Shown here one piece after another: positions 1,627-24,373 of a stretch of 25,244 nt of DNA. The position numbers were made by a program, and so were the translations under genes. Every line of letters begins with the position of its first letter. Within the stretch, counting starts at the first letter, position 1. The DNA is from a virus: IMG/VR virus record IMGVR_UViG_3300045911_000764, positions 1-25,244 of that record; one strand, 5' to 3'. The notes under the pieces were generated by a model that had not been told where the DNA came from, ran no database searches, and saw nothing but the letters and a program-made list of their open reading frames with translations.

Positions 1627-3937
1627 GGTCGGCCTCCCTGTTCAAAGGTTCACCAGCGGAAAGGGTCAGGGCCTCGTCGGCCAGAGCCATCAGGCGGTCC
1701 AGGCCGCCGAAGAGGGCCTTGACGCGAACGATTCCGCCGGCCTGGTCGAGCCACTGGCTGCGGAGTATCTGCTCGGGGCGGATGTCCGGGTTGGCCCGCT
1801 TGAAATCGCAGACCATCAGGACCATCTCGCGCTGCTCGCGGGTGAGGGACTTGTCCTTGGCCCACTTCTCGAAGGCCCGCCGCTGGCGGAGGGTATCGAA
1901 GTCGGCTTCGCCCGTGGCGACGGCGATGAAATCCTCGAGCGTGGCCTCGGGCTCGCCGTAGAGGTCGCGCAGGGCCGACACGTCGAAGCCCAGGGTGGCC
2001 AGGAAGGCATGGTCCGGCAGCGTCGGGCCCTTGAAGTAGCGCCAGCAGAGGATGGTCTGGGCGAAGCGCTGCCTGAGGCCGTCGCGTTCCATGCCGCCCT
2101 TGAGTTGGGCCTCGACCTGGCGGCGGAGTTCCTCAAGAATGGCCGGGGAGATGGTCTCGGAGAAGACCAGGTGCACCGGAACGTCCGCGATGACCATCTC
2201 CTGCTCGCTGCCACGCTCGGGCCTCTCGCCCTCGCCTTCTTCGCCGCGACGCTCTCGCTCGCGGGCGATGATCTCCTCCTCTTCCTGCTCCACGGGTTCG
2301 TCCACGACGCCGGGCGTGTCGTTGGTGATGGCCGGCTCAAGCCGCGTGATGTCCACGAAGTCGACGAGTTTGTAGATTTCCTTGCCAGTCTCCCTGCACT
2401 TGCGGGTGCCGCGGCCCTTCATCTGGACGTAGAGGACCTTGGACTTGGTGGGGCGGGCCATCAAGAGAACCTCGACATCGGGTGCGTCGATGCCGGTGTC
2501 GAGCATGCCCACGCCGACAAGGACGATAGGCCGAGGGGCCATATTCGGGTCCTTGTGGGCCTGGTCGATGATGGCCTGCCGCTCCGCCGGGCCGGTGATG
2601 CGCTGGAACTCCTCGATGAGTTCCCTCGCGCCGGGCATCTCGTTGTGGACGGCGACGATGAACCGCTCCCCAGCCGCGTCGTTCCTGGGGAGGTTGTTGA
2701 GCTGGTTGTACCGCTCGATGAGGGCGTACCGAAGATTCTTGGCGTGCGCGATGGAGGCGGCGAACACGATGGTCTTGACCGGCTGGCGCGTGCCGAGAAT
2801 CTCGAAGTACTTCTCGGCGATGAGTTCGTTACGCTGAGGGACATCGACGGCCCGGCCCAACTGCTCCGGCTCGTAGTCGAAGCCCATGTCGTGGACGCCT
2901 TCGAGGTCCACGTTGGTGTGGAACTTATGGTGGATACAGCCGGCCAGGCGCTCCCATTCGGGGACGTCGGGGTTCGTCTCGGCCTGGCGGATCGTGTAGC
3001 GGTAGATGGGCCCGCGGTACTGTCCCGGGTCGGTGAAGAAGCGGTCGGTGTTGACCGTCTCCTTATCGGCTGGGGTGGCCGTCAGCCCCAGGAGAATCGC
3101 ACCGCCCTGGGCGAAATGGTCCAGGACGCCGTACCAGTCGCCGAAGTATGAGCGATGGCACTCGTCGAGGACGACCAGGCCGAAATGGTCCTGGGGGTAG
3201 GAGCGGTACTTCTCGCGCACAGCCAAGTGCTGAACCGTTGTGACGAGGATGTCCCGATGCCTGTCCTCGGGTCCGCCAGTGGCCCGGTCGATGTCAAAGT
3301 TGTCGCCGAGGTGGGTCTTGAACTTCCTGACGGTTTGCATCGCCAGGGCGTCCCGGTCCACAAGGAACAGCGCCCGGCGAAGAAGCCCGACCGACCACAA
3401 CTTGGCAATGACCCCAGCGGCGGTGATGGTCTTCCCCGTGCCGGTTGCCATCTGGAGGTACATCCGCCGGCGGCCAGCCTGAACCGCTCCGAGGACCTGG
3501 GAGACCGCGACGCGCTGGTAGTCTCGGAGCGTGCCGTTCAGCTCGGTCGCCTGGGGCTGGAAGAACTCGCCGAATTCGGCGGGCGTCGGAAAGGCGGCGA
3601 TCTTTTCGGGGAGGGTGTTCGCCCTGAGATTCTGGCGCAGGAAGACCTGGCCGTCGCTGGCAAACAGCAGCGGCACATCGTGACCGGTGTTCCGACGATA
3701 GGCGCGCGCGTAGCCCTTCGCTTGGTCGAGGGCGGCCCAGAGGTCTTTGCCGGGCTTTTTGGCCTCGAGGATGGCGACGACCTTGTCGTCACGGAGAAAG
3801 ACGCGGTCGGCCTCTTCTCCGTCCAGATCGTCCCGCCATCGCTTGCGGGTCGCCTCGAAGTCAGTGAGGTCCCACCCCCGCTGGCGGAGATGTTCCTCGA
3901 TGAGAATTTCAGCCTCGTCCTCGTTGATCTGTCGCAC
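1610..3937 (-). CDS. hsdR: Type I restriction endonuclease subunit R (HsdR)
   Basis: This is the 775-residue ATP-dependent translocase/nuclease subunit of the type I system. The N-terminal nuclease domain shows Asp44 and the E-x-K pair (Glu58, Lys60; LEAKKP). The SF2 helicase core has Walker A MATGTGKT (163-170), DECH (258-261), TATP (286-289) and motif VI QMKGRGTR (505-512). A highly charged Glu/Arg linker (about 553-585) precedes a C-terminal helical domain of the EcoEI R type, whose usual length of about 800 residues it matches. The GTG start at 3937 is preceded by AGGAG at 9-base spacing. The gene begins 12 bases after the upstream XRE gene and overlaps hsdM, so the three form one operon. 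All key catalytic motifs are intact, so it is probably functional. Confidence 0.95.
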   Translation of the reverse strand: MRQINEDEAEILIEEHLRQRGWDLTDFEATRKRWRDDLDGEEADRVFLRDDKVVAILEAKKPGKDLWAALDQAKGYARAYRRNTGHDVPLLFASDGQVFLRQNLRANTLPEKIAAFPTPAEFGEFFQPQATELNGTLRDYQRVAVSQVLGAVQAGRRRMYLQMATGTGKTITAAGVIAKLWSVGLLRRALFLVDRDALAMQTVRKFKTHLGDNFDIDRATGGPEDRHRDILVTTVQHLAVREKYRSYPQDHFGLVVLDECHRSYFGDWYGVLDHFAQGGAILLGLTATPADKETVNTDRFFTDPGQYRGPIYRYTIRQAETNPDVPEWERLAGCIHHKFHTNVDLEGVHDMGFDYEPEQLGRAVDVPQRNELIAEKYFEILGTRQPVKTIVFAASIAHAKNLRYALIERYNQLNNLPRNDAAGERFIVAVHNEMPGARELIEEFQRITGPAERQAIIDQAHKDPNMAPRPIVLVGVGMLDTGIDAPDVEVLLMARPTKSKVLYVQMKGRGTRKCRETGKEIYKLVDFVDITRLEPAITNDTPGVVDEPVEQEEEEIIARERERRGEEGEGERPERGSEQEMVIADVPVHLVFSETISPAILEELRRQVEAQLKGGMERDGLRQRFAQTILCWRYFKGPTLPDHAFLATLGFDVSALRDLYGEPEATLEDFIAVATGEADFDTLRQRRAFEKWAKDKSLTREQREMVLMVCDFKRANPDIRPEQILRSQWLDQAGGIVRVKALFGGLDRLMALADEALTLSAGEPLNREADHDPNA

Positions 3938-7514: not shown

Positions 7515-9524
7515 TCACGTGAACGCCGCGCGGTTGTTCCGCACGTCCTGGCGGAGGCCCTCGACGCCCTTGGCGGTGCGCTCGGTGGCGTTGGCGATGC
7601 GGTCGTCGGCCCCGCCGGCTTGGAGGCCCAGGAGCGCCGCCGCGTTGAACGTACCCGCCACGCCGATGGTCCGTTCTCGGGCCGTCTGGAGCAGGTCGCC
7701 CAGGCCCGACAGGCTCCCGCGGACCTTGGCGAGCAAGTCTTCGGGGCCTTCCATCCTGCCGGGGCCTTCGGCTTCCTTGGCTTCTCGCTTTCGCCGGGCT
7801 TCGCCGAGGGCGTCCTGCCATTCCTTGCGGGCCTTGGCCAGGTCGGCCTCGTTCTCGGCCATGCGCTGCTGGTACTCGGTGTCGAGTTCCTGGTGCTTCT
7901 GGAGATTCTGCCGGCCGATCTCGGCCATCGTGGCTTCATGCACCTGTGTGGCGCGTTCGCGCTCCTGCTGGCGGCGCTCCTCACGCTCGGCGAGCTTCTG
8001 GCCTGTCTCCCGCTCGATGTCGGCCTTCCGCGCCTCGTAGTACTCATCCGCCGCGCGGTTGGCCGCCTCGGCGTCGAAGCTGGAGTCGAACTGCTTCCTG
8101 ATCCAGTTCCACGCCTTCGAGAGCTGCTTGCCGCACCAGTGCCAGGCCTTGGTCACCCAGCCGGTGAACTGAGTCCAGGTCTTCGAGAGGAACGCCGTGG
8201 TCTCGATCCAGCCGACCTCCAGGGCATGCCAGACGATTTCGACGACGGCGAGCAATCCGTGCCAGGCGTCGTAGCCGATCTTGATGAAGAAGTTGCGGAA
8301 GTTCAGCCACGCCTTCTCCAGGAAGTTGATGCCCCGGGTCCACTCCATCTTGAGCGTCAGCCAGAGAATCTTCGCCGCCAGGGTGATGTCCCCGGCGGCC
8401 AGGGCGTCGGCGATGCCTTGGTAGGAGGCCACCGCGTCGTCGCGGAGCGTCTCGAACCGCTCGGCCAGCCAGCCCAGGGCCTTCGCCCCCGCACCGGTCG
8501 CGTAGAGGATGTAGGCCCCAAGGGCCACGACGGCCGTGATGACCAGGCCGATGGGCGAGACCAGGAACGCCAGCACCGCCCCCAGCAGTTTCAGGACCGT
8601 GCCCACGGCGGTGACGGCCACGGCCAGCACGCCCATCACCTTGGCCACGCCGGTGATGGCGTAGCCCAGGACCACGAGCGCCGCGCCGGCCGCGATGACA
8701 CCAATGGCCACCTGGAAGATGGTGACGATGAGTTCCTTGTTCCGCTTGATCCACTCGGCCGCGACGACGGCCACGCGCGTGACCCACTGCGCCGCCTGCG
8801 AGAGCACGGGCACCAGAGCCGAGCCGACGGTGAAAACGCCTTGCTTGAGCACCTTCCACATGATGCTCAGCGTGTCCGTAAATCGCTCCGCTGCCTTGGC
8901 GTCCTCGGTCGAGATGGTCAGCCCCAGCCTGCGGGCCTGCTCCTGGAGCTGCTCGATGCCCGCCGCGCCGCCGGAGAGCATCGGCAGCAGCATTGTGCCG
9001 GAGCGGCCGAAGAGTTCCATCGCAGCGGCGGCCTTGATGGTCGGGTCCTCGATCTGGCTGAGCCGGTCGGCGATCAGCTTGAACTGCTGCTCGGGCGAGA
9101 GCTGGTCGAGGTCGGCGACGGTCAGGCCGAGGATGGCCAGGGCCTCTTGGGCGCTCTTCATCCCCGTGGCCGCGTCGAGAATGGTCCTCTGCATCTTGCG
9201 GATGCCGGTCTCCAGGACCTCCATGCTCGCACCCGAAAGGTCGGCGGCGAAGCCGAGCTCCGACAGCGTCTCGACGGAGAAGCCCGTCCGGGCACTCATC
9301 TTGGCCAGCGCGTCGCCCATGTTGGCGAAGACCTTGCTGGATGCCGCCAGCGGCGCGACCACGGCCGAGCCAAGGCCGACGAGCTTGAGGCCCATGTTGC
9401 GGACGCTCTCGCCGAAGGCCTTGAGCTTCGCCTGGGCGCGCTTGAGGCCGCGCACGAGCTTCGAGTCATCGGCGAACAGCTCGACGAACGCGCGACCCGC
9501 CCGGATTGCACCTGCCTGCGGCAT
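7515..9524 (-). CDS. Phage tail tape measure protein (TP901-type)
   Basis: The 669-residue protein sets tail length and is ejected with the DNA. The N-terminal 60 residues (LVRGLKRAQAKLKAFGESV, then GLKLVGLGSAVVAPL) match the usual tape-measure start, followed by the conserved 'M...SARTGFSVETLSELGFAADLSG' type segment near 76-99. Residues about 264-345 form several hydrophobic helices, and a Trp-rich helical region spans about 385-490. About 500-610 is a long charged coiled coil (Glu/Arg/Lys/Gln). The ATG at 9524 has GGAG 8 bases upstream; that SD overlaps the stop codon of the Mom-like gene and the end of a palindromic repeat. At 669 residues it predicts a short tail by the usual length rule. 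Confidence 0.92.
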   Translation of the reverse strand: MPQAGAIRAGRAFVELFADDSKLVRGLKRAQAKLKAFGESVRNMGLKLVGLGSAVVAPLAASSKVFANMGDALAKMSARTGFSVETLSELGFAADLSGASMEVLETGIRKMQRTILDAATGMKSAQEALAILGLTVADLDQLSPEQQFKLIADRLSQIEDPTIKAAAAMELFGRSGTMLLPMLSGGAAGIEQLQEQARRLGLTISTEDAKAAERFTDTLSIMWKVLKQGVFTVGSALVPVLSQAAQWVTRVAVVAAEWIKRNKELIVTIFQVAIGVIAAGAALVVLGYAITGVAKVMGVLAVAVTAVGTVLKLLGAVLAFLVSPIGLVITAVVALGAYILYATGAGAKALGWLAERFETLRDDAVASYQGIADALAAGDITLAAKILWLTLKMEWTRGINFLEKAWLNFRNFFIKIGYDAWHGLLAVVEIVWHALEVGWIETTAFLSKTWTQFTGWVTKAWHWCGKQLSKAWNWIRKQFDSSFDAEAANRAADEYYEARKADIERETGQKLAEREERRQQERERATQVHEATMAEIGRQNLQKHQELDTEYQQRMAENEADLAKARKEWQDALGEARRKREAKEAEGPGRMEGPEDLLAKVRGSLSGLGDLLQTARERTIGVAGTFNAAALLGLQAGGADDRIANATERTAKGVEGLRQDVRNNRAAFT

Positions 9525-9535: not shown

Positions 9536-10351
9536 CTACCTGCCTGCCGTAGCCTCGGCGAAGGCAGGTGAGCAACCGGCCGCCGCCTGCCTGCCGGACA
9601 GGCAGTTCTCGAAGAGCAGCGCCCGGGTCGTTGCTGGAGCGGGCTGACGGAACCGCCCCGTCCTCTCGATCCTGGGAGGATCGCGGGTCTCTCTTGACCC
9701 CTCGCCCGCGTCAATCGCCCACGCCAGGTCCCGCGTCTTCGGATACAAGCGGGTCCACTCGACCGGGCTCTCGCGGAGCAGCCTCTTGCGGCGGGCGTGC
9801 CCGCAGAGGAACTTGACATAGCGGAACTGGCGTCCCCAGACCTTGCGAAGCCCCAGGCCCGTCCACACCTCCCGGCGGCGCGTGCCGAACCGCGTAATCA
9901 TGAAGCGCGGGTGCACCGGCTCACCGTCGGCCGTGAGGTAAATCTCCGTGGTGATGAACCCGCCGTAGAGCCAGCCCGCGGCCTGGTAAACGTAGCCGGG
10001 CTTGCCGCGAATCCCGTCGGCCCAGGTGAACAGGAGCACCTTCTCCGGCTGGCGCTCGCGGAACCATCTGGTGCAGGCGGCCAGGAGCTGGCTCTCGGTG
10101 TTGCGGGGCAGGTCGTCCCGGCAGCACAGGCGGCACAGTTCCCAGTAGTCCCGCGTGTCGAGGGACGGGAACAGCCGCCGGATGGTATGCCGGGGCCTCG
10201 TGCCCCAGCCCCAGATGGCCACGCCCGCCAGGCCGTGCCCGTCGTGGAAGCCCAGGTGCACCATGCAGTGCGGCGGGAAGATGTTCGAGTAGTGCCACCG
10301 CAGGCACAGGGCGCGGGCGTCCTTGGAGTTGACGAGGTCCACGTCGAGCAT
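9536..10351 (-). CDS. Mom-like DNA modification protein with repeat-encoded C-terminus
   Basis: The 271-residue protein starts at ATG 10351. Residues 1-160 show a GNAT-like pattern shared with phage Mu Mom and Mom-family adenine methylcarbamoylation proteins: LCLRWHYS (15-22), a Gly-rich strand LAGVAIWGWG (41-50), YWELCRLCC (69-77), and a 'TESQLL..' helix leading to LLFTWAD (106-112) and YVYQAAGWLYGG (120-131). Mom converts DNA adenines to a carbamoylmethyl form that blocks host restriction. The family assignment is from remembered motifs, not a search. From about residue 246 the chain is encoded by a palindromic repeat (9537-9607), giving a low-complexity tail of Gly, Ala and Arg. The start follows the holin-like stop by 7 bases, and the gene is co-transcribed with lysis and tail genes, consistent with late Mom-type expression. 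Confidence 0.72.
   Translation of the reverse strand: MLDVDLVNSKDARALCLRWHYSNIFPPHCMVHLGFHDGHGLAGVAIWGWGTRPRHTIRRLFPSLDTRDYWELCRLCCRDDLPRNTESQLLAACTRWFRERQPEKVLLFTWADGIRGKPGYVYQAAGWLYGGFITTEIYLTADGEPVHPRFMITRFGTRRREVWTGLGLRKVWGRQFRYVKFLCGHARRKRLLRESPVEWTRLYPKTRDLAWAIDAGEGSRETRDPPRIERTGRFRQPAPATTRALLFENCLSGRQAAAGCSPAFAEATAGR
9537..9607. repeat. Palindromic repeat element inside the 3' end of the Mom-like gene
   Basis: Two hairpin units are visible: ACCTGCCT/AGGCAGGT arms at 9538-9545 and 9562-9569, and CTGCCTG-CCGGA-CAGGCAG at 9587-9605. The core GCCTGCCTGCCG recurs at 24386-24481. The same kind of GC-rich palindrome is common as dispersed short repeats in metagenomic bacterial genomes. Here it supplies the last roughly 25 codons and the stop of the Mom-like gene and abuts the SD of the tape-measure gene. 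Confidence 0.75.
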
Positions 10352-10358: not shown

Positions 10359-10559
10359 CTACTCGCCTGCCTGCGCTTTGGCGACCTCGTTGGCGATGCC
10401 GGCCCGGATGAAGACGGCCTGCGCCGCGGCCCACACGGCGGCCAGGAGCGCCACCGTGTCGATCTGCCCGTCGGCCCAGGCAATCACAGCACCGGCCAAG
10501 CCAACGGCGGCGGTGATGTACGCCTTCTTCCCCTTGAGGAATTCACGCACCTTGTTCAT
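10359..10559 (-). CDS. Holin-like small membrane protein
   Basis: The 66-residue protein starts at ATG 10559 with GGAGG about 6 bases upstream. It has a basic N-terminus (MNKVREFLKGKKAY) followed by two short hydrophobic segments, ITAAVGLAGAVIAWA and VALLAAVWAAAQAVFI, separated by DGQIDT, and a short charged tail. Size, two-helix layout and basic start match class II-type phage holins, which form membrane lesions that release lysin. It sits among a lipoprotein and another membrane-anchored protein, supporting a lysis role, though no endolysin was recognised in the window. Confidence 0.7.
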   Translation of the reverse strand: MNKVREFLKGKKAYITAAVGLAGAVIAWADGQIDTVALLAAVWAAAQAVFIRAGIANEVAKAQAGE

Positions 10560-10581
10560 GCCGACCTCCTTGTCGCGCTTG

Positions 10582-10929
10582 TCAAAGGCCCACCAGGGCC
10601 GCGAGGATCGAGGCGACGACCGGCGCGATCCGAAGCAGAAGTTCGTTCTTCAGGTCCTCGCGGACCTTGTTGTAGCGGGCGACGGCCTCCCATCGCGCGG
10701 TGTTGGACTTGACCTTGGCCACGAACTCCTCGTTCGAGAGTTTCGAGTCCAGTTCCGCCACCGCCTCGATGTCGCCCGCCATCAGCCGCCGCAGGTACTG
10801 CCAGGCGTCCTCCTGGGCGAGGTCGAAGAGCCTCGGCCCGTACTCGGCCAGCAGGGCCGTTGCCGCCTGGCGCTGGTCTTCGGGGATGCGGGCGAGAAGT
10901 TGCTGAACACGCTCGTTGAGATCGCTCAT
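10582..10929 (-). CDS. Hypothetical helical protein with C-terminal membrane anchor
   Basis: The 115-residue, mainly alpha-helical protein begins MSDLNERVQQLLARIPEDQ and ends with a hydrophobic segment, LLLRIAPVVASILAALVGL, that should insert in the membrane as a tail anchor. Its start overlaps the stop of the lipoprotein gene in an ATGA-type junction (10926-10929), indicating translational coupling. Lying between a lipoprotein and a holin-like protein, it may take part in lysis, for example as a spanin-like or antiholin partner, but the sequence gives no family match. No catalytic residues are evident. Confidence 0.6.
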   Translation of the reverse strand: MSDLNERVQQLLARIPEDQRQAATALLAEYGPRLFDLAQEDAWQYLRRLMAGDIEAVAELDSKLSNEEFVAKVKSNTARWEAVARYNKVREDLKNELLLRIAPVVASILAALVGL

Positions 10930-11201
10930 GGCTGCTCACCCTCCAGCTTCGGCCCCCAGGCCTCATCCTTGCGGGCGCTCCGCACGAAGAACCGCCACTG
11001 CTTGAAGTTCTCCTCCAGGTACGCCCGCAGCCACGCGGGGCAGTCCGGCTCGCGCGCAGGCTCCGTCCGCTGGACGGCCTGGTAGGCATCCATCGTGCTG
11101 GTCTCGGCGGCCGTCAGCGCCTCGCCCCGCAGGTACACGTTGCCGCAGCCGGTCAGGCACAGCACGGCCAGCACCGCAATGCACATCGCAACCTTCTTCA
11201 T
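10926..11201 (-). CDS. Small phage lipoprotein
   Basis: The 91-residue protein has a classical lipoprotein signal: basic MKK, a hydrophobic core AMCIAVLAVLC and the lipobox LTGC, with cleavage predicted before Cys19. The mature part is short, polar and carries a Trp/Phe-rich segment (KQWRFFVRSARKDEAW) near the C-terminus. In phages, small lipoproteins in a lysis cluster are often outer-membrane spanins (Rz1-type) or superinfection-exclusion factors. The location next to a tail-anchored protein and a holin-like gene favours lysis. The lipobox suggests a diderm-type host envelope, but it is not exclusive to one. Confidence 0.7.
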   Translation of the reverse strand: MKKVAMCIAVLAVLCLTGCGNVYLRGEALTAAETSTMDAYQAVQRTEPAREPDCPAWLRAYLEENFKQWRFFVRSARKDEAWGPKLEGEQP

Positions 11202-11205
11202 CGCG

Positions 11206-11505
11206 TCACCTTCCTTCCTTAGGTCTGGTGAAGGCGTCCTTCAGGACCGCCATGTCCGTTACTTCAACGCCAGAGTCGCGCTTGTCCCTGGCCGAGTACG
11301 GGTCGAAGTCGCTGGGCTTGTAGGCCCTGGTCTTCTTCGGGTCGCGATTCACGTTGGCCACGAGCGCCAGGACCGCCGACGTGTGCGCCCAGTTGTCACG
11401 GCCCCGGGCCTCGGCCATCCACAACAGTTCCCGCAGCGTCAGCGGGCCGGGGGCGACCCCGACGACGGCGGCGAGCTCGTAGACGGTTCGCCACGGATCG
11501 ACTCG
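11206..11505 (-). CDS. Second frame of the tail assembly chaperone (gpT-like), no start of its own
   Basis: From about 11499 to the stop at 11206 the frame reads as a well-behaved protein of about 95 residues: PWRTVYELAAVVGVAPGPLT, then LRELLWMAEARGRDNWAHTS and KPSDFDPYSARDKRD. Upstream the same frame stays open but becomes Arg/Gly-rich shadow of the preceding gene, and no ATG, GTG or TTG with an SD is found near the junction. It lies at -1 relative to the upstream chaperone ORF, which ends at 11439. The arrangement matches the G/GT frameshift pair of lambda-like tails, where the extended product binds the tape measure. No classical slippery heptamer was found. The 5' limit given is approximate. 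Confidence 0.6.
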   Translation of the reverse strand, partial: RVDPWRTVYELAAVVGVAPGPLTLRELLWMAEARGRDNWAHTSAVLALVANVNRDPKKTRAYKPSDFDPYSARDKRDSGVEVTDMAVLKDAFTRPKEGR

Positions 11506-11978
11506 CTGCGCGCGCTCACCGCTTCGAGGGTCGTCTCCCCTTCGGCTTCGCTCAGGGTCTCCGAGACCGCCGCCTCCAGGTCCAGCTTGTCCAGCCGCGT
11601 CTCGATCCGCGCGACCGCCAGGTCGATCATCCGTCGCTGGGCGTCGACGGCCTTGGCCAGATCGCGCCGGCCCAGCTTGCGGAAAAAATCGACGAGTTCC
11701 TCGTAGAAGGCCGTCTGCGCCGCGAGGACCACGTCGCCGCCGAGGGCCGCCGCGAACTGCTCGTCGGTGACTCCCGCCGCGTCGGCCTGGGGCTTCACGA
11801 GGGCGAAGATGACGTCGCACAGGAGAATCACGTCCGTGCCCAGGCGCGTCAGCAGCGGCGGGTCGCCCGCCTCCAGTTCCAGCAGGTTCACGTCCAGAAG
11901 GCTCTTCACCCGCTTGGCCGCGTCAATGGTGAGCGCCAGCGTCCAGGTACGCCCGGCGGTGTCGGTGAAGGTCTTCAT
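11439..11978 (-). CDS. Tail assembly chaperone, first frame (gpG-like)
   Basis: The 179-residue protein starts at ATG 11978, one base after the tail tube stop. The first 140 residues are a compact mostly helical domain (FTDTAGRTWTLALTIDAAK; LLDVNLLELEAGDPPLLTR; FYEELVDFFRKLGRRDLAKA), typical of tail chaperones placed between tube and tape measure. The last 35 residues become Ser/Glu/Pro-rich and overlap the next frame. Part of that tail is encoded by a repeat-like sequence (11500-11572), so the natural end of the protein may lie near residue 150. In the family it is needed for tail assembly and is absent from mature virions. Confidence 0.7.
   Translation of the reverse strand: MKTFTDTAGRTWTLALTIDAAKRVKSLLDVNLLELEAGDPPLLTRLGTDVILLCDVIFALVKPQADAAGVTDEQFAAALGGDVVLAAQTAFYEELVDFFRKLGRRDLAKAVDAQRRMIDLAVARIETRLDKLDLEAAVSETLSEAEGETTLEAVSARSESIRGEPSTSSPPSSGSPPAR
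11500..11572. repeat. Repeat-like sequence at the tail chaperone frame junction
   Basis: The stretch reading CTTCGGCTTCGCTCAGGGTC with the dyad GGTCTC-C-GAGACC (11556-11568) and a GCGCGCG run resembles dispersed 'cttcggc..cgctcag' repeats seen in many environmental genomes. It is unlike the flanking coding sequence and encodes a low-complexity Ser/Glu/Ala/Arg segment. It sits exactly where the two chaperone frames exchange. Only one copy is present in the window, so the repeat assignment rests on resemblance. Confidence 0.35.
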
Positions 11979-11979: not shown

Positions 11980-12396
11980 TCAGGTCCCCTCGATCCAGCT
12001 TCGGAACACGGCCAGCTTGGCCGTCACGCTGACGGTGATGGCCTCTTCCAACGCCTCGTTGCGAGAAAACGACGTGATCGCAAAGTCCCCGTCAGGCCCC
12101 TGGCCGCCGGCCTTGTCCAGAATCTTCAGCGCGATCAGCCCCGACGCGAGAAAGGCGTTCTTGATGGCGGTGAACCCGGCGTCGGCGGGGTCCCACACCA
12201 TCTCGAACTCGCAGGTGCATTCCCGCAGCGTCGGCGCGGTCGCCCGCCAGCCGGAGTTCGCCCGCGTGGTCACGTCCGCCTCGCCGGCCTCGAGGGTCAG
12301 TGTCACGTCCCGCACATTGGACATCTCGGTCGAGGGCGTGCTGCCGGCCGCGCCGTGATAGAGTTTCGCGTCCTTGCCCAGAATGAACGTCGCCAT
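11980..12396 (-). CDS. Major tail tube protein
   Basis: The 138-residue protein starts at ATG 12396 with AGGAGG 8 bases upstream. It is rich in beta strands and polar turns: MATFILGKDAKLYHGAAG, MSNVRDVTLTLEAGEADVTT, CTCEFEMVWDPADAGF and a closing AITVSVTAKLAVF. The pattern 'NVRDVTL.L..GEADVTTRA..GW' is typical of siphophage tube proteins, which stack as hexamers to form the tail. Position just upstream of the chaperone pair is the conserved place for this gene. No sheath gene lies beside it, supporting a non-contractile tail. Confidence 0.82.
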   Translation of the reverse strand: MATFILGKDAKLYHGAAGSTPSTEMSNVRDVTLTLEAGEADVTTRANSGWRATAPTLRECTCEFEMVWDPADAGFTAIKNAFLASGLIALKILDKAGGQGPDGDFAITSFSRNEALEEAITVSVTAKLAVFRSWIEGT

Positions 12397-15087: not shown

Positions 15088-16500
15088 TTACGCCTCGCCT
15101 TTCATCTTCACGCCCGCCCGCCAGTCCTGGAGGGCGACGCCGAAGTCGAAGTACCCACGGAACTGGATGCCCAGGACGTTGAAGTCCGCATCCGCCCGCT
15201 CGACGGTCGGGGTCTGCTGGCCGTTAAGGAAGGCCACCTCGATGACCGGCAGGTCCTCGGGGTCGGCCAGCAGATACCACGCCTTGGCCGAGTAGCCCGT
15301 CAGCGTCGAGTTGCTCAGGTAGGCCGAGTGGACGACGCTGAACTTGCCCGCGTGTGGGTTGTTGGTGACGTACTTGGTGTTGGCGGTCGTGTCGCGCAGC
15401 TCCGTCGAGTTCATGAGCTGCGTGCCGCGGACCAGCAGCGCCGGCGGAACCAGCAACACCTTGGGCGTGATTCCCAGGGGGCTCCCCTCGGCGTCCTTCT
15501 GCTCCAGGAACAGGAGTTCCGCGTCGGTCAGGCCGTCCACCGAAAGCACCGTGTCCGCGCCGGCCTTGTAGTTGCCGCGGGCGGCGGTGAAGAAGGCGGC
15601 ATTGTTGAGGAACGCGGTCCAGAAGACCTTGTTGAGCTTCAGCGCGCCACCCCGGCCGATCCGCCGCGGCAGCGCCGTCAACGCGCCGAGGTCGTCGTTG
15701 ATGAGGTCGGTGCGGGTGATGGAGAACATCCGCCCGTAGGTCTTCGCCTGGTTGGAGAAGGTCTCCTCGTCCACCTGGCCGTGCTTGAGTTCCCCGGTCG
15801 CACCGACCTCCTCGTACTCGAAGGCCCCGGTCAGGCGGTAACTGGTAACGGTCTTGAAGTCGCGGACGCTCCGCGTGGCGGCGATGCGCTTCCAGGCGTC
15901 CTCGACGCTCTCGAAGCCGGCCAGCAGGAACTTGTTGGCGACGTTGGAAAGGATGCCCGGCAGACGGAACGTGCTGAACGCCGCTTGGAGAGCGCCTTCC
16001 ATGTCGGAGCGGAAGCTTCGGCCCTGGTAGCCGTTGGCCCAGGCCGCTTCCATGATGAGTTCCTGGAGGCCGATGCCCGAACGGAACCGCCGTTCGGCGG
16101 CATCGAGCACCTTGGCGTCGAAGCGCGACTCGTCGGGCTTCATGCCGCCGCTAAGGCAGACGGCCGCGGCGAGCACGTCCGTTTCGACGGTGCCGTCGCG
16201 GAAGTGCGCGGCCGGGGCCTTCGGTCGCTCGGCGCGGAGCACCTCAAGCTCGGCCCGGCCGGCGTCCCAGCCCTCCTCAATGGCCTTGGCCTCAATGTCC
16301 GCGTGCCGGCCGGCACAGACCTTGCGGATGGCGTCGATGCGCTGCGTCTCGGCCAGGGCAGCGGCCCGGATGTCCGCCACGGGATCGGACGGCGGACTTT
16401 CCGTCACGGCGGGATTGGCATCCCCGCCGCTGCCCACCCGCGACTCGACCACGGGGGCGTTCTTGCCCTGGGTGGCGGTATTGTTCTTCGTCTCGTCCAT
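15088..16500 (-). CDS. Nested capsid (scaffold plus major capsid) product from an internal start
   Basis: In frame with the fusion, ATG at 16500 is preceded by GGAAGGAG at 9-base spacing, one of the best SDs in the window. Initiation here would give a 470-residue product (MDETKNNTATQGKNAP at its N-terminus) containing only the scaffold-like helix and the capsid domain, without protease. This mirrors nested scaffold genes in lambda-like phages and would supply many capsid subunits per protease. The internal SD and ATG are directly seen; use in the cell is inferred. Confidence 0.6.
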   Translation of the reverse strand: MDETKNNTATQGKNAPVVESRVGSGGDANPAVTESPPSDPVADIRAAALAETQRIDAIRKVCAGRHADIEAKAIEEGWDAGRAELEVLRAERPKAPAAHFRDGTVETDVLAAAVCLSGGMKPDESRFDAKVLDAAERRFRSGIGLQELIMEAAWANGYQGRSFRSDMEGALQAAFSTFRLPGILSNVANKFLLAGFESVEDAWKRIAATRSVRDFKTVTSYRLTGAFEYEEVGATGELKHGQVDEETFSNQAKTYGRMFSITRTDLINDDLGALTALPRRIGRGGALKLNKVFWTAFLNNAAFFTAARGNYKAGADTVLSVDGLTDAELLFLEQKDAEGSPLGITPKVLLVPPALLVRGTQLMNSTELRDTTANTKYVTNNPHAGKFSVVHSAYLSNSTLTGYSAKAWYLLADPEDLPVIEVAFLNGQQTPTVERADADFNVLGIQFRGYFDFGVALQDWRAGVKMKGEA

Positions 16501-17196
16501 GTCGTTGCTCTCCTTCCGAGCGGTCTGTGCCGCAATAGTGGCGGACGTGTTGCGGTCCGCGCCGAGGAACACGAAGCTGATCTCCCCCAGTTCGGCCTTG
16601 CGGGCCACGATGAGCGGGCCCGGCAGGCTGGTCCCATTGACATTCACCGTCCGGCCTTCGGGCACAAATTCCCGCTGGAGGACGACTGCCCCGATGCTCG
16701 CCTGCCACCGGAACCCCCTGTCGTGGGCCTCCACGACGGCCTTGGCCCGGGCCGACACGTCGATGACCTCCCCGGAGACGATGAGGTTCGTCCCCACTAC
16801 CTCCACGCGGTCGGCCTGGCCGAGCATGTAGTCGGGGTCCTGTTGATGGCCGACGAAGACCGGGAACGACGCCCGCGAAAGGTCCAGCCCCGCCAGGTCC
16901 ACCACGACGGGGTACGAGAAGCCCGCGATGCGCATGGGGCCGCCGGTGTAGGCGACCATGGCGAAGCGGCGGTTGCGGGGCCGGCCGTCGGCGGAGGGGC
17001 CTTGCGCGGCCTCCACCTGGAACGATGCCGTAAGCGCCATCTCCAGAGGTTCTCCGGCGCGGACGCCCGCGCGACTCTCGCAGACGGCCCGGCGCTGGGC
17101 AGTGTCGGGAAACTCACGGACCATGGCCGCATCGCCCATGCAGCGGTCGATGAACTGCTCGTGCGTCTCGCCGGTTTGTCTCTCAGGCAGCGGCAC
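15088..17196 (-). CDS. Prohead protease-major capsid protein fusion
   Basis: The 702-residue polyprotein is started at GTG 17196, which has AGGAGG 9 bases upstream; the longer frame to 17244 lacks a comparable site. After VPLPERQTGETHEQFIDRCM comes an S78/HK97-type protease domain (about 55-225) with the expected His in VFVGHQQDP (His117) and Ser in RWQASIGA (Ser167). The domain ends in LGEISFVFLGADRN. Residues 233-330 are polar and helical, as expected for a scaffold/delta segment. Residues about 350-700 are the capsid domain (ANKFLLAGFESVEDAWKRIA; FSNQAKTYGRMFSITRTDLI; VALQDWRAGVKM), of the Mu-gpT/HK97 class. The protease would cut itself and the scaffold from the capsid part during maturation. 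The start overlaps the portal stop by 14 bases. Confidence 0.88.
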   Translation of the reverse strand: MPLPERQTGETHEQFIDRCMGDAAMVREFPDTAQRRAVCESRAGVRAGEPLEMALTASFQVEAAQGPSADGRPRNRRFAMVAYTGGPMRIAGFSYPVVVDLAGLDLSRASFPVFVGHQQDPDYMLGQADRVEVVGTNLIVSGEVIDVSARAKAVVEAHDRGFRWQASIGAVVLQREFVPEGRTVNVNGTSLPGPLIVARKAELGEISFVFLGADRNTSATIAAQTARKESNDMDETKNNTATQGKNAPVVESRVGSGGDANPAVTESPPSDPVADIRAAALAETQRIDAIRKVCAGRHADIEAKAIEEGWDAGRAELEVLRAERPKAPAAHFRDGTVETDVLAAAVCLSGGMKPDESRFDAKVLDAAERRFRSGIGLQELIMEAAWANGYQGRSFRSDMEGALQAAFSTFRLPGILSNVANKFLLAGFESVEDAWKRIAATRSVRDFKTVTSYRLTGAFEYEEVGATGELKHGQVDEETFSNQAKTYGRMFSITRTDLINDDLGALTALPRRIGRGGALKLNKVFWTAFLNNAAFFTAARGNYKAGADTVLSVDGLTDAELLFLEQKDAEGSPLGITPKVLLVPPALLVRGTQLMNSTELRDTTANTKYVTNNPHAGKFSVVHSAYLSNSTLTGYSAKAWYLLADPEDLPVIEVAFLNGQQTPTVERADADFNVLGIQFRGYFDFGVALQDWRAGVKMKGEA

Positions 17197-18625
17197 GATC
17201 CTGGTCCTCCTCCTCGTCTCGGCGGTCGGTCCGGTCGTCGGCATCGCCGGCCGATTGCGGCGCTGCCTGCGGGATGGCCAGTCCCAGTTCCTTCATCAGG
17301 GCCAGTTCTTTGGCCCGCTGGCGAATCTCGGTCTCCCAGTCCTTGCCCTGGCGGGCATACTCGTGGGCAAGCGTGGTGGTGTGACCGGCCAGGCGCTGGG
17401 CCTGCGCCGCCGCCTCCTTCTGCGGGTCCACGTGCTCGTGGCCGTCCCAGAACCACTGGTGTGGCACGTCCCCCAGACCGGCCAGGGACGCCAGTTGCGG
17501 CAACAGCACGGCCTCCTCCAGCCAGGCCTCCAGGACGCGGTCGAGGACGACCGCGCCGCAGGTCGCCTGCTCGACGCGGATGCTCTTAAAGTAGGTCTGG
17601 TGGTCCAGCCGCCCCGAGGCGTAGTTGTAGCCGGAGGAGTTGCAGGCGGCGATGTTGTAGGGCATGTTCAGGCAGCGGGCGATCTCGTTGAGAATTTCCC
17701 GCTTGAACTCGGCGTAGCTGGTGGTCGGCTGCTGGGCTTCGACCTGCCCCAGCTTCCACCCGTCGGGCAGGACGGTGGCCATGCGCTTCTCCAGTTCGAC
17801 CACGTCCATCGGCTCCAGGGCCTGGGCCTCTCCGCTGGCCGGCGCATCAGTGAAGAGCACCGCCGCAAAGTCCGCCGCCGTCTCAGCCGCCCCGAGCACG
17901 GCGAGCGTGTATCGCCGCAGTTGCGCAAAGAGCGGCAGGGCAGGCGTGATCTCCGAGACGCCCCGATGCTGGCCCGGCCGGTCGGGCCGGAACCAGTGGA
18001 TCATCGCCTCCGCCTCCACGCGGTCGAACTCGCCGACGTGGATGCCCGCATCCCCCGGATGCTGACCGCTGACGTAGTAGAGGACCGGGTTGCCGGCCTG
18101 GTCGAACTCGATGCCGTCCACGACGCTCTCCAGGGCGAGCTTGACAGTCGGCGTGAAGACCCGGTCGGCCTCAATGAGCTGCACGTCCAACTTGACGAGG
18201 GCCGGGAGGGTGGGATTGGCCGTCAACAGGGCGAAGGCCTCCCCGTCGGTCGCCTTGGCCATCCTCATGGTGCGGAGTTTTTCGGCCAGACCCACGGCGG
18301 CCGACCAGCGGGAGAACTCCTGCTCGATGAGCCGGTTGGCCGACTGGTTCTCGGTGAGGACCTGAAGCCTCGGCCCGGTGCCGATGACATCGTTGGCCAG
18401 CGTCAGGATGATGCCCTTGGCGTAGGAGTTGTTGGCCACCTCGTAGCGGGCGCGATTGCGGAGCGTGCGGCGGACCTCGGGGCTGGCTGCCGCGTCGGCC
18501 GAGAGGCCGTCGGCGTTGGCCCAGTGGCGGACGTTGTCGGGCGTGGTCTGGGCCGCGTCGTAGCGGGCCCGCACCACCATGGGCGTCCGGCCGGTCTTGC
18601 TTCGCCTCCGTGCGAAAGGCCACAT
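17183..18625 (-). CDS. Phage portal protein (lambda gpB family)
   Basis: The 480-residue protein forms the dodecameric DNA channel at the capsid vertex. It begins MWPFARRRSKTG, has the N-terminal RNRARYEVANNSYAKGIILT segment, a central KLDVQLIEADRVFTP/DGIEFDQAGNPVLYYV region and the wing-to-stem segment with ILNEIARCLNMPYNIA followed by YNYASGRLDHQTYFKSI. This last part is diagnostic of lambda-type portals. The C-terminus is acidic and disordered. Its ATG comes one base after the stop of the small upstream gene with no strong SD, so coupling is expected. It lies between the terminase and protease/capsid genes, as usual. Confidence 0.93.
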   Translation of the reverse strand: MWPFARRRSKTGRTPMVVRARYDAAQTTPDNVRHWANADGLSADAAASPEVRRTLRNRARYEVANNSYAKGIILTLANDVIGTGPRLQVLTENQSANRLIEQEFSRWSAAVGLAEKLRTMRMAKATDGEAFALLTANPTLPALVKLDVQLIEADRVFTPTVKLALESVVDGIEFDQAGNPVLYYVSGQHPGDAGIHVGEFDRVEAEAMIHWFRPDRPGQHRGVSEITPALPLFAQLRRYTLAVLGAAETAADFAAVLFTDAPASGEAQALEPMDVVELEKRMATVLPDGWKLGQVEAQQPTTSYAEFKREILNEIARCLNMPYNIAACNSSGYNYASGRLDHQTYFKSIRVEQATCGAVVLDRVLEAWLEEAVLLPQLASLAGLGDVPHQWFWDGHEHVDPQKEAAAQAQRLAGHTTTLAHEYARQGKDWETEIRQRAKELALMKELGLAIPQAAPQSAGDADDRTDRRDEEEDQDRAAA

Positions 18626-18626
18626 C

Positions 18627-18901: not shown

Positions 18902-21190
18902 TCAGAGAATCTTGCCCGACGCGGCGACCCTGCGGCGCTGAAACTCAGACAACTTGATCCGCCCGCGGGGCCGGGGCACCTCTTCGTGAGATCGCAGGGT
19001 CACCCCTTGCATCGACGCCGCCACGGCGCAGCCGACCAGGCAATCAAGCCAGTGGTTCTCCGAGGCCTCCGGGCGCAGCTTCCACTCGTCCACCACGCGA
19101 CCCCGACCCTCGGTTTTCACGCGGTACTCGCTCGTGAGGTGCTCGGCCAGGAGGCGATGCGTTTCCGGGTCGCGGCCGAACAGGGACAGGCACCCCCGGT
19201 CGCCCATCGCCACGGCCAGACGCGCATGGATGAAGCTCTTCCAGTAGTTCGAGTCGAAGAGCACGTGGCGGATGGCCCGGCGGCCGTGGACGCTCGGGAT
19301 GCGCCAGTTCAGGCCCACCCGGTCCCCGCGCTTGCGCCGGTACTCGGAGAACGGGATGCTCGATGCGCCCACGAACCGCCCGTGGCTGGGCGTCAGGACC
19401 GCCGCATGGGCGGACTGGCGGCAGAACTGATAGACCACGTCTGTGGACGTGCCCCAGTTGGCGTCGATAAGGCACCGTTCGACCTTCAGGTGCGCCCCGT
19501 CCTCGCGCCGCCACTCTCGGCCGAGAAGATCGTTCGTCACGACCTCCAGCCCGGCGTAGATCGCGCCTTCCAGCCCCACGCCCTTGGCCGCAAGTTGGAG
19601 CGTCCGCGTCGCGTCCCGCAGCGTGAAGTAACGGCGCTTCTGGTCCGGGTACGAGCCGTAATCGATGACGTATCCCGTGAAGTCATCCGCCCAGGCCGAG
19701 ACCAGCCAGAAGAGGAGCTTGCCCTGCACGTCGATGAACATCGTCAGGTGGTCCGCGCCGAGGGGCACTTCGCCCGCGCGATAGCCGTTGAGCTTCTGGG
19801 CGACCTGGTCGGCGGTGAGGAGTTCGTCATCCTCCACGCCCTTTTCCGGCAGCGGCTCGTTCTGGTACTCGGCGAAGAACGCCGCCTCGTCCTGGAGCTT
19901 CAGGTTCATGGCGTGCTGGATGGCCGAGGCCTCGTCGTGGTTGAACCGCTCCGGCCACGCCACTTCCGCGCCCTCGTCGAGGGCCTCGCGATTGGCCTCG
20001 TAGAAGGCCGTCGCCTCGCGCAGGTCGCCGTGAATGCGAAGGCTCTCGGCGCGGACCTCGGCGTACTTGGCCCAGAGCTTCTCGTTCTTGGGGAATGAGT
20101 AGACCATCCGCGTCCGCTCGCCGTTCCATTCCGGGTGCTTGTCACGGTCGAGGATGTTGTCGGCCATGTCGCCGGGCCGGATGACAGTGCAGGGCATGAT
20201 GCCGCTGATCTTCTTGCCCGGGCCGGCAAGGCCGAGCACCGCGCCCGCGAGAATCCGCTCCCGCGTAGCGCACTGCGATAGCGACCTCGCCGATTCGTCC
20301 GTCTGCGGGTCGTCCAGGACCACCAGCGACGGCCTCACGGTCTGCCCGTCAGCCCGCTTGTACTTCATGCCCCGAATACGCCCGGTGATGCCGGCGACCT
20401 TGATGATGGCCCCGCTGGCCTTCGAGCCTGGCATGGTCGGCAGGACGACTTCGCTAGCCGTCCAGCCGATGTGCGTCCTTTCGCCCTTGTAGAGCTGGCC
20501 TGAGCAGCGGTTGGCGATGCCGTCCAGGCACCGGATGGGATGGACCACCTCGGGGAAGTCGGCCTCCAGGAGGTCGTTGCCGTCCAGTTCCATCTTGATG
20601 GAGTCGAGCATCTCGACGGCGTGGACCTCGGACGCGCCGATGAGACAAACGAACTGGCGGTGGCCGTAGAGAACCGCCCACAGGCAGGCGCACTCGGCGA
20701 TGCTGGTCTTGCCGCTGCCGCGCGGCATGGCCAGCGCGAACAGTCCCCCGTGCAGTACCGCCTGCTCGATGCGGGCGATGACCTTCAGGTGGTCTGGCGA
20801 CCAGCCGAGGTAGAACGTCATGGGGAAATACGCCTGGCAGAAGAACCGAAAGTCCCTCTCGCTCGCCGCCTTGCGCTGCGGGTCAACGACGGCGGGCAGC
20901 TCGCCGATGTCCCGCCCGGCCTCCGAGAGCGCCCGGTTCCGCGCGGCGGCACGCTCCTTGAGCGCCTCGTACTCTGCACCGGGGTCGACGACCTTCCTCG
21001 GCACGTGCCGCTGGTCCACGAGCCACGCCACGTAACGGAAGAGGTCCACGCGCCGCCCGTCGCCGATGCGGAACCCCGCCCGCATACGGTGGCGGTAGAG
21101 CTGGCGCTCGTCGAGGACCGTGCCGAGCGGCGTGGAGTTCAGCAGCCGCGCCAGGTCGGCGGGCTTCAGGTTGCGGGGGTCAATCGCCAC
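18902..21190 (-). CDS. Phage terminase large subunit (GpA-like)
   Basis: The 762-residue packaging motor starts at GTG 21190 (GGGAG 7 bases upstream). Residues 1-60 form a small domain similar to the product of the gene just upstream. The ATPase has Walker A MPRGSGKT (155-162) and Walker B PSLVVLDDPQ (287-296). The nuclease domain shows FIDVQG with Asp487, CLIDANWG with Asp576 and HWLDC with Asp716, the expected acidic triad. It cuts concatemeric DNA and pumps it into the prohead through the portal. Length exceeds the usual 640 of lambda gpA because of the N-terminal extension. It overlaps the upstream gene by 11 bases. Confidence 0.94.
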   Translation of the reverse strand: MAIDPRNLKPADLARLLNSTPLGTVLDERQLYRHRMRAGFRIGDGRRVDLFRYVAWLVDQRHVPRKVVDPGAEYEALKERAAARNRALSEAGRDIGELPAVVDPQRKAASERDFRFFCQAYFPMTFYLGWSPDHLKVIARIEQAVLHGGLFALAMPRGSGKTSIAECACLWAVLYGHRQFVCLIGASEVHAVEMLDSIKMELDGNDLLEADFPEVVHPIRCLDGIANRCSGQLYKGERTHIGWTASEVVLPTMPGSKASGAIIKVAGITGRIRGMKYKRADGQTVRPSLVVLDDPQTDESARSLSQCATRERILAGAVLGLAGPGKKISGIMPCTVIRPGDMADNILDRDKHPEWNGERTRMVYSFPKNEKLWAKYAEVRAESLRIHGDLREATAFYEANREALDEGAEVAWPERFNHDEASAIQHAMNLKLQDEAAFFAEYQNEPLPEKGVEDDELLTADQVAQKLNGYRAGEVPLGADHLTMFIDVQGKLLFWLVSAWADDFTGYVIDYGSYPDQKRRYFTLRDATRTLQLAAKGVGLEGAIYAGLEVVTNDLLGREWRREDGAHLKVERCLIDANWGTSTDVVYQFCRQSAHAAVLTPSHGRFVGASSIPFSEYRRKRGDRVGLNWRIPSVHGRRAIRHVLFDSNYWKSFIHARLAVAMGDRGCLSLFGRDPETHRLLAEHLTSEYRVKTEGRGRVVDEWKLRPEASENHWLDCLVGCAVAASMQGVTLRSHEEVPRPRGRIKLSEFQRRRVAASGKIL

Positions 21191-21443: not shown

Positions 21444-21457
21444 AAGTCTTTACCCCA

Positions 21458-22215: not shown

Positions 22216-22227
22216 GAGGTGCAAGCC

Positions 22228-23031
22228 ATGAAGAAGAACGAGGTCGTCATCGGTGGCCGCTACCTGGCGAAGGTCAGCGGCCGGGTCGTGCCGGTGCGGA
22301 TCACCGGCCAGTCCCCGTACGGCGGATGGGACGCGGTCAACGCCGAGACGCACCGCGCCGTCCGCATCAGAGGAGCGCAGCGGCTTCGCAGGCCGGCCGA
22401 CGCCGCAACGCGGGAAGCAATCGCCGGCGAGGAGACGGACATGAGCAAGGCGAAGAAGCAGGTCGTGTTGGGCCACGTCTATTCCGTGGCCGTGGGCGGC
22501 TCGTACCTCCCGGTGCGGGTCGACTCTGGGCTCGGGCACGGGCGGTACGAGGGCACGGTCCTCCAGCCCGACGGCAAGGAGAGGACCGTGAAGTTCTCGA
22601 CCGACCGCGTCCGGGGCGATGGTCAGCCGGAGGACCAGTGGCGGAAGAAGCAGGAGGACGGTAAGCAGGAGCGCGAGACCCAGGCGCTTCAGACGGCCGC
22701 CAAGGTCGCCTCGAAGGTCCTGGGCGTTCCGGTCGGCGTCGTGCGGCCAAAGGCCAAGGCGACGGGCGAGCCGAAGCCCCGCAAGAAGGCCGAGCGCAAG
22801 GACGGGACGATGAGCGGCCTGGACGCAGCGGCGAAGGTGCTGACCGACGCGGGCGAGCCGCTGGGCTGCAAGACCATCGTCGAGCGGGCCATCGAGAAGG
22901 GGTACTGGAAGACCGGCGGCAAGACGCCGTCCGCGACGGTCTACGCAGCCATCATCCGCGAGATCGCCAAGAAGGGCGACGCGTCGCGGTTCGCCAAGGC
23001 CGACCGCGGGATGTTCACGCTCAAGGCGTAG
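22228..23031 (+). CDS. HARE-HTH domain protein with duplicated N-terminal module
   Basis: The 267-residue protein starts at ATG 22228 with AGGAGG about 7 bases upstream. Residues 195-267 match the HARE-HTH fold: SGLDAAAKVLTDAGEPLGCK, IVERAIEKGYWKTGGKTP, ATVYAAIIREIAKKGD and a final RGMFTLKA. That fold is found in eukaryotic ASXL proteins and bacterial restriction-linked proteins and has been proposed to sense modified DNA. Residues 5-54 and 78-129 are two copies of a beta-rich unit (VVIGGRYLAKVSGRVVPVRI versus VVLGHVYSVAVGGSYLPVRV). A basic Lys/Arg/Gln-rich linker joins them to the HTH. An in-frame ATG at 22441 with GAGGAG 6 bases upstream could give a shorter product. The stop overlaps the convergent methyltransferase by 11 bases. 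Confidence 0.82.
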   Translation: MKKNEVVIGGRYLAKVSGRVVPVRITGQSPYGGWDAVNAETHRAVRIRGAQRLRRPADAATREAIAGEETDMSKAKKQVVLGHVYSVAVGGSYLPVRVDSGLGHGRYEGTVLQPDGKERTVKFSTDRVRGDGQPEDQWRKKQEDGKQERETQALQTAAKVASKVLGVPVGVVRPKAKATGEPKPRKKAERKDGTMSGLDAAAKVLTDAGEPLGCKTIVERAIEKGYWKTGGKTPSATVYAAIIREIAKKGDASRFAKADRGMFTLKA

Positions 23032-24373
23032 CACGCTTCAATCCCTCCGCTCCGACCACCCCGGCGCAAGCCGGGGTTTGGTCGTTCAGGGCCGTCCGCT
23101 CGGCCTTCCGTCCTGTGAACTCTTCCCACCTGCGGACGATGACATCGCAGTAGAGCGGGTCGATCTCCACCACGAGTGCCCGACGCCCGGTCCGCTCGGC
23201 GGCGATGAGCGTGCTGCCCGAGCCGCCAAAGAGGTCCAGGACGTTCTCGCCCGGCTTGCTGCTGTAGGTCATGGCGCGGACGGCGAGTTCGACCGGCTTC
23301 TCCGTGAGGTGCACCATCGACTGCGGGTTGACCTTCTTCACGGACCACACATCGGTGGCGTTGGTAATCTCCGGGTTGAAGTAGTGGGCCGCGCCCTCCT
23401 TCCAGCCGTAGAAACACCACTCGTGGTTGCCCATGAAGTCCTTGCGCGTGAGGACCGGATGCTCCTTGACCCAGATGATCATCTGCGAGAAGTAGAGCTC
23501 CGATTCCCGCAGCGCGTTGGGATAGTTCCAGATGTTCGAGTACCCGCCCCAGATGTAGAAGGCCCGGCCCGGTTCCAGCACCCGCTGGATGTTGCCGAAC
23601 CACAGCCGCAGGAGCCGGGCGAACTCCTCGTCGGAGATGAAGTCGTTGACGAGCGGCCTGTCCTTGGGGCGCAGCTTGCCCGTCGTGGCGTGCGTCTCGC
23701 CCCGGATGGCGATGTCCATGCCCTGCTGGCCGATGGGCCGGTCGCCGCTGGCGGCGATGGCGTTGTTGCTCCGGCTGGCGACGCCGACATTGTAGGGCGG
23801 GTCGGTGTTCACGAGCTGCACGGTCGCCCCGTCCAGCAGCCTGTCCACGTCCTCGGCCTTGCCGGAGTCGCCACACAGCAGCCGGTGGTTGCCGAGTGTC
23901 CACAAGTCGCCGGGCTTGGTGACTGCCTCGTCCGGCGGCTCGGGGATGGCGTCCGGGTCGGTCAGGCCCTCGGTGCCTGTCGCGCCGAGCATCTTCTCCA
24001 GCTCCGCCGACGAGAAGCCCAGGAGTTCCAGGTCCACGTCCATGCCGCGCAGTTCCGACAATTCGATGGGCAGGAGTTCCATATCCCACGTGGCCAAATC
24101 CGCGACCTTGTTGTCGGCGATGCGGTACGCCCTGACCTGCGCCGGGGTGAGGTCGGTCGCCACGTGGACGGGGACCATCTCCAGCCCGAGCTTCTGCGCC
24201 GCCTTCCAGCGGGTATGACCCACGACGATGACGCCCTCGGCGTCCACGACGATGGGCTGGCGGAACCCGTACTCCCGGATGGACCGGGCGACCGCCTCGA
24301 CCGCGCCGTCGTTGTCGCGGGGGTTGTGCTCGTAGGGCTTGATGTCCGAAACCTTGCGAAGTTCGACCTTCAT
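23021..24373 (-). CDS. ParB-domain DNA methyltransferase (beta class, N6-adenine or N4-cytosine)
   Basis: The 450-residue protein joins two domains. Residues 1-95 are ParB/Srx-like: KPYEHNPRDN, VGHTRWKAAQKLG and YRIADNKVADLATWD. Residues 155-420 are the methyltransferase, with catalytic DPPYN at 191-195 before the SAM motif LFGGSGSTL at 381-389, the beta-class order. The SEKP-equivalent LTEKPVELAVRAM is also present. Such phage-borne enzymes methylate A or C in specific sites and may protect phage DNA or mark it for packaging. ATG 24373 has GGAGG 8 bases upstream. The last about 15 codons are made from a hairpin (23054-23083), giving an odd TPACAGVVGAEGLKRATP ending. It follows the small ORF by 3 bases, so it belongs to the HNH operon. 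Confidence 0.93.
   Translation of the reverse strand: MKVELRKVSDIKPYEHNPRDNDGAVEAVARSIREYGFRQPIVVDAEGVIVVGHTRWKAAQKLGLEMVPVHVATDLTPAQVRAYRIADNKVADLATWDMELLPIELSELRGMDVDLELLGFSSAELEKMLGATGTEGLTDPDAIPEPPDEAVTKPGDLWTLGNHRLLCGDSGKAEDVDRLLDGATVQLVNTDPPYNVGVASRSNNAIAASGDRPIGQQGMDIAIRGETHATTGKLRPKDRPLVNDFISDEEFARLLRLWFGNIQRVLEPGRAFYIWGGYSNIWNYPNALRESELYFSQMIIWVKEHPVLTRKDFMGNHEWCFYGWKEGAAHYFNPEITNATDVWSVKKVNPQSMVHLTEKPVELAVRAMTYSSKPGENVLDLFGGSGSTLIAAERTGRRALVVEIDPLYCDVIVRRWEEFTGRKAERTALNDQTPACAGVVGAEGLKRATP
23054..23083. terminator. Bidirectional hairpin at the convergent gene junction
   Basis: CCCCGGC-GCAA-GCCGGGG (23059-23076) is a perfect 7-bp stem with a GNRA-type GCAA loop on the plus strand. 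GACC (23054-23057) and GGTC (23080-23083) extend it across a small bulge. It lies 22 bases after the HARE-HTH stop and inside the last codons of the methyltransferase. It could end plus-strand transcription and stabilise the other 3' end. No long U-tract follows, so the terminator role is inferred from position. Confidence 0.5.

Follow-up and report, generated by a model that had tools for sequence, protein, structure and literature searches.

The window analysed here, a stretch of 25,244 bases that comprises an entire viral record of IMG/VR, very probably codes for a DNA-modifying enzyme of the Mom type, carried by a temperate-type tailed phage of Planctomycetota; the protein would be made late and modify adenine at N6 against restriction, and its gene would represent accessory cargo. 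The record is classed as linear, and the window is thus possibly a fragment. The phage operon on its minus strand runs from an HNH protein via a ParB-DNA-methyltransferase, a 533-aa protein of unknown type, the terminase and the portal protein to a head protein with protease, followed by neck and tail genes, Mom, the tape measure, further genes and finally HsdR and HsdM (Table 1). The 533-aa protein (21433-23034, minus strand) has no match in Pfam, PHROGs, PADLOC or NCBIfam; it is kept near the terminase in relatives.

Table 1. Features of the window and, in the last row, of two related loci
Feature	Position	Strand	Basis and remarks
HsdM-like methylase subunit, 541 aa	1..1626	-	Pfam, PADLOC
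HsdR-like protein (EcoAI/EcoEI type), 775 aa	1610..3937	-	Pfam, PADLOC; NCBIfam below cut-off
Tape measure protein	7515..9524	-	PHROGs; next gene downstream of mom, 11 bases away
mom-family gene, 271 aa	9536..10351	-	Pfam, PHROG, PDB, alignment, selection; frame 10351-9536, ATG to stop
Parts of Mom	residues 2-191; about 206-236; 237-271		Mom domain; conserved C-terminal extension; variable tail
Small hydrophobic protein, 66 aa, holin-like at most	10359..10559	-	Hydropathy; upstream of mom
Conserved small protein, 115 aa	10582..10929	-	ORF; homologues at 81-100% identity in 7 related loci
Tail assembly protein with weak similarity to minor tail protein T	11206..11820	-	Pfam E 2.7e-4, below cut-off; border of variable slot
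Major tail protein	11980..12396	-	PHROGs
Major head protein with head maturation protease	15088..17244	-	PHROGs
Portal protein	17183..18625	-	PHROGs
Terminase large subunit	18902..21190	-	PHROGs
ParB_N + N6_N4 DNA methyltransferase	23021..24373	-	Pfam, PHROGs; homologues <1 kb from mom in 13/42 related loci
Type I/CBASS cluster	L177 17487-20709; L186 5038-15961

By its sequence, the gene is a new member of the known Mom family. The sequence-only reading had recognized the motifs LCLRWHYS (15-22), YWELCRLCC (69-77), TWAD (109-112) and YQAAGWLYGG (122-131) and assigned the protein to the Mom-type GNAT enzymes. All four motifs are present in the order of the family, and the assignment is borne out by the profile search and the structure prediction that had been proposed as checks, both of which lead to the Mom family and a GNAT-like fold. 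The Pfam profile PF25680 (Mom) matches with E=4.9e-44 and 150.8 bits versus a curated cut-off of 27.1 (profile positions 2-194 of 202), PHROG 1384 (Mom-like) matches with E=6e-39, and the closest solved structure by sequence is that of Mu Mom (PDB 8bv8; phmmer E=3.9e-20). The sequence identity with Mu Mom is only about 32%, and the donor, base specificity and target sites may accordingly differ from those of Mu. A match to NCBIfam XF1762 (E 6e-4) lies far under its own cut-off, and Mom itself has no match in PADLOC. An alternative TTG start (315 aa) was rejected because the extra residues represent an arginine/proline-rich shadow frame. Relatives of Mom occur in 274 of 50,697 phage records at E<=1 and in at least 578 confirmed stretches of IMG/VR, the best 80 of which were kept in our scan.

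The predicted structure has a GNAT fold like that of Mu Mom. The AlphaFold2 model, based on a 41-row alignment, reaches a pLDDT of 83.8 and a pTM of 0.77, with residues 232-271 under 50. Its top match in Foldseek is 8bv8 (E 2.1e-14), the title of which (“Mom inactive mutant S124A”) names the S124A variant of Mu Mom inactive, and VIA-align likewise places 8bv8 at the top (Z 20.8, 189 residues, 3.2 A), with the next best GNAT at Z 13.3. Seven residues (H20, Y21, E71, D112, Y122, Q123 and Y178) are invariant both in the 41-row alignment and in a 17-row alignment that includes the Mu, Melnitz, Y8A and Appa phages. Residue S124 of Mu Mom corresponds to S87 of the window protein, D149 to D112 and Y159 to Y122; D149 and Y159 are presumably also important in Mu Mom. 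The key serine is kept in 39 of the 41 rows and is replaced by isoleucine in L050 and by threonine in L168.

The carrier is a temperate-type tailed phage of Planctomycetota. One viral contig (G001) matches window positions 4325-25244 with 100% identity and continues in the opposite direction as far as a serine recombinase close to its start. In the MAG loci L173 and L174, a serine recombinase likewise comes after the tail region; together these findings document the temperate type. The nearest cellular records are MAGs of Phycisphaerae and Planctomycetales (9 loci in 7 MAGs), and those loci that are situated on longer contigs are probably prophages.

The spacing around mom is operon-like, with 7 bases to the small upstream gene and 11 to the tape measure. 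The gene had been described as lying between a holin and the tape measure, in a tail operon next to lysis genes. Tail operon and tape measure (PHROGs) hold, whereas the holin label and with it the proposed lysis neighbor are not supported: the upstream gene encodes a 66-aa protein that has hydrophobic stretches and no family match in Pfam, PHROGs or NCBIfam. The absence of a com gene beside mom, noted in the same reading, agrees with our tblastn search with Mu Com, whose best hit in the window has an E of 4.4; in the other loci examined nothing was found at E<=1, in a search whose sensitivity is low because Com is short. In particular, no Mu-type com overlapping the start of mom was found; the gene upstream of mom is that of the 66-aa hydrophobic protein. 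A frame at 10556-11089 that overlaps the gene of the 115-aa protein looks, by its residue make-up, like a shadow frame.

Among relatives, the slot that separates the T-like gene from the tape measure varies. Among the best 80 of 199 tape-measure relatives it contains Mom in 12, is empty (<=150 bases) in 33 and has a longer gap without Mom in 35, the open frames of which are not all genes. Filled with Mom, empty or otherwise filled, it thus represents an accessory-gene site. Within the phage group, mom is located 5' of the tape measure in 20 of the 42 Mom loci, and directly 3' of it in 3. In 13 it has a ParB-methyltransferase homologue at a distance of at most 1 kb, for the most part on the 5' side of the terminase; six are unplaced. 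The setting that the sequence-only reading took to be distinct is common within this group. Two loci with a methyltransferase between Mom and the tape measure (L180, L181) are counted here as 5' of the tape measure; otherwise the numbers are 18 (5' of the tape measure), 15 (methyltransferase), 3 and 6. L105 was left out because it is the same contig as L076; L114 and L115 share the same Mom, and L102 and L122 originate from one sample.

On the Mom tree, the three sites require five changes, the least possible being two, and the gene therefore seems to have changed its place repeatedly. The sites are nevertheless clustered on the tree, as none of 200 shuffles gave a number as low. Its outer part is unsure due to the long branches of Mu and Appa. 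The MAG G014 harbors two Mom genes, one at each of the main sites, which are sisters with uneven support (98/62). Altogether, mom seems to have moved and behaves as accessory cargo in three places of the genome. On the short contig L003 (1912-3084), a gene normally found past the tape measure has a match behind Mom, reflecting a deletion, a rearrangement or a misassembly.

A DNA methyltransferase is the recurrent neighbor of Mom. The methyltransferase between Mom and the tape measure is recognized by Pfam N6_N4 in L180 (5001-5792) and by similarity only in L181 (about 7543-8334). In a wider set, an N6_N4-type methyltransferase is present within 1 kb of Mom in 11 of 50 loci, ten of which have the same spacing and resemble near-copies or members of a single lineage; the profile used for this count was built from seeds that included L129, itself one of the 11 matches. 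In the phage Appa, the Mom-like gp47 adjoins the ParB-like gp46. This recurrent neighborhood makes a functional link between Mom and the DNA methyltransferase plausible. On the 3' side of its tail genes (18325-20675), the Mom-carrying MAG locus L178 has two further N6_N4 methyltransferase matches, one on each strand.

At the other end of the operon, HsdR and HsdM subunits of a Type I restriction system were both identified within window positions 1-3937, with NCBIfam scores below the respective cut-offs. No HsdS was found among the window genes scanned with Pfam and PHROGs; as HsdM begins the record, it may lie beyond the record end. The two genes may be phage cargo or host flank. Their GC3 of 0.82-0.87, against about 0.89-0.93 for eight phage genes, with g4117 (0.63) and the HNH gene (0.71) lower still, does not decide between the two origins. 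A single-protein scan for HsdR relatives in viral contigs retrieved 13 stretches that fit the pattern, none of which is a true relative. Comparable genes occur 3' of the tail in other loci, namely HsdM, HsdS, a helicase and HsdR in L108/L185, and HsdS, HsdM, a SAVED-HNH effector, a CBASS cyclase, a second HsdS and HsdR behind the Mom-carrying tail operon of L177/L186 (Planctomycetales MAG). L175 has partial Type I genes in this region, with HsdM at the contig end. In their main alignments, four HsdM proteins (window, L177, L185 and L188) share 22-33% identity, a level that suggests separate acquisition of the genes.

Records that reach at least 4.5 kb past the tape measure were compared post hoc, with unequal stretch lengths and without regard to kinship: of the distinct records with Mom, 4 of 11 have HsdM on the 3' side of the tail, versus none of the 22 that lack Mom (Fisher 0.008). 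Restricted to viral contigs, the numbers are 2 of 5 versus 0 of 22 (Fisher 0.028). The PF02384 scan covered whole contigs for 21 of the 22 Mom-lacking records, the locus for L094 and the examined stretch for the MAG loci; L023 and L082 represent one contig and were counted once, and the HsdM of L108 appeared only when the examined contig stretch was extended. In one Mom-lacking record, G038, a Type I system sits next to the recombinase at the opposite end, and counting it gives 1 of 22 (Fisher 0.03); another, G037, shows a weak partial match. The co-occurrence of Mom and Type I genes is a lead.

A reading of the gene as a decaying or non-functional remnant is highly improbable. The C-terminal 35 residues or so vary, have low model confidence and end in a palindromic repeat, and behind residue 236 dN/dS exceeds 2 in 4 of 8 pairs (few sites). 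In the core (residues 1-236), by contrast, dN/dS is 0.09-0.17 against the eight relatives, which indicates purifying selection, and inner stops are absent from the frames of all relatives inspected including 9/9 MAG matches. The palindromic repeat (about 9540-9605) supplies the last Mom codons, and similar C-terminal ends (PACAEASAGR and the like) are found in some relatives. An intact Mom-fold enzyme could still have changed its chemistry or substrate, transferring another acyl group to adenine or modifying a neighboring tail protein. The position among tail genes is in agreement with such a change, and the conserved extension of about 31 residues (206-236) past the end of Mu Mom could alter specificity; many of its positions are invariant in a clade of 13 sequences, and its own dN/dS is unsteady (0 to 3.3, few changes). 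However, the active-site residues are kept, and the 13 of 42 related loci in which mom lies beside a DNA methyltransferase and away from tail genes fit DNA rather than a tail protein as substrate, so that we regard this change as distinctly unlikely.

A third explanation accepts the modification of phage DNA and proposes that Mom shields it chiefly against Type I systems of its own lineage, thereby uniting a modification and a restriction arsenal in one temperate element. It could account for the HsdR and HsdM genes that follow the tail in the window and for their counterparts at the same place in L108/L185, L177/L186 and partially L175, as well as for the excess among Mom-carrying records, and a Clostridium prophage with a Mom-like gene and complete Type I genes is described in PMC11318856. 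This excess stems, however, from a small comparison that includes the close kin L175 and L177 and shrinks if G038 is counted; the Type I genes in MAGs may belong to host flanks, and HsdM would itself protect the DNA. In the MAG loci L173 and L174, whose Mom is most like that of the window, the tail is followed by a serine recombinase, and the stretch examined contains no HsdM. The window ends inside the region in question, and HsdM is absent from 10/10 viral relatives searched, of which the near-identical G001 stops at window position 4325, before HsdM, and the others may not reach that far. On balance we consider this explanation fairly unlikely.

The preferred reading is that Mom decorates the phage DNA and probably shields it against bacterial cutting enzymes. 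Judged from gene order, the protein would be made late together with the tail proteins. Its donor may be a CoA-linked acyl compound or a similar small precursor, as expected from Mu, and the enzyme would place a small group on N6 of some adenines of newly replicated phage DNA prior to packaging. In the next host, the modified DNA would then resist restriction enzymes that sense adenine. As part of a late operon, mom may need no Com-like translational switch. A rather doubtful extension of this scheme is that a temperate Planctomycete phage lineage joins three activities directed at adenine, namely a movable Mom, the ParB-fused N6/N4 methyltransferase as its recurrent neighbor and Type I restriction genes carried as cargo behind the tail, accompanied in one case by CBASS, and that Mom-modified DNA is exempt, on induction and re-infection, from the restriction with which these prophages meet competitors.

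The findings document Mom-type hypermodification genes in temperate-type Planctomycetota phages, with a recurrent tail-operon slot, a shifting position and a methyltransferase neighbor, in a setting that is unlike Mu and recurs in a defined phage group. If active, the protein would provide a Mom for which no Com was detected and which is easily assayed in E. coli, and the phage would offer a natural case for the interplay of Mom modification with phage-borne Type I restriction. The main text of PMC8670742 has no passage on Mom, and a literature search of limited coverage on Mom with Planctomycetes and on ParB with Mom-like proteins retrieved nothing specific to this setting besides PMC11318856.

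The window protein shares with Mu Mom (8bv8), which the PDB entry names a methylcarbamoylase, the GNAT-like fold and the equivalents of S124, D149 and Y159, but differs by the additional conserved C-terminal stretch. In Mu, the genes com and mom overlap close to the end of the record, whereas the window gene is part of a tail operon in which no com was found; the com-mom operon of Mu is controlled by Dam, OxyR and the phage C protein (PMC10434257). The closest protein in the phage collection (39% identity) is QZI95078.1 of the Methylophilales phage Melnitz, annotated as DUF465, which likewise reaches past the end of Mu Mom. Its gene is surrounded by small hypothetical genes, with a PKHD-type hydroxylase nearby; this phage is filed under Kyanoviridae, and the setting differs from that of the window. 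The same Mom family is represented by gp47 of Appa, which lies in a replication region, and by L102, L107, L110, L118 and L176 of the same phage group, where mom is situated beside the ParB/N6_N4 methyltransferase 5' of the terminase and not next to the tape measure.

According to passages of PMC7824862, Mom enzymes transfer an acyl group from acyl-CoA onto N6 of adenine, and the versions of jumbo phages are fused to endonuclease domains. These fusions combine modification and nuclease in one phage, as may be the case here, where the respective genes are separate. Both the gene type and the presence of Mom and Type I genes in one prophage are known already, the latter from PMC11318856. The Clostridium clostridioforme prophage LM41phi5 described there contains the Mom-like PHROG 1384 and the Type I PHROGs 16694 and 2713, which are the top PHROGs of the window Mom, HsdR and HsdM, respectively. 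The company of Mom and Type I genes thus has a precedent in a phage of a different host, Clostridium.
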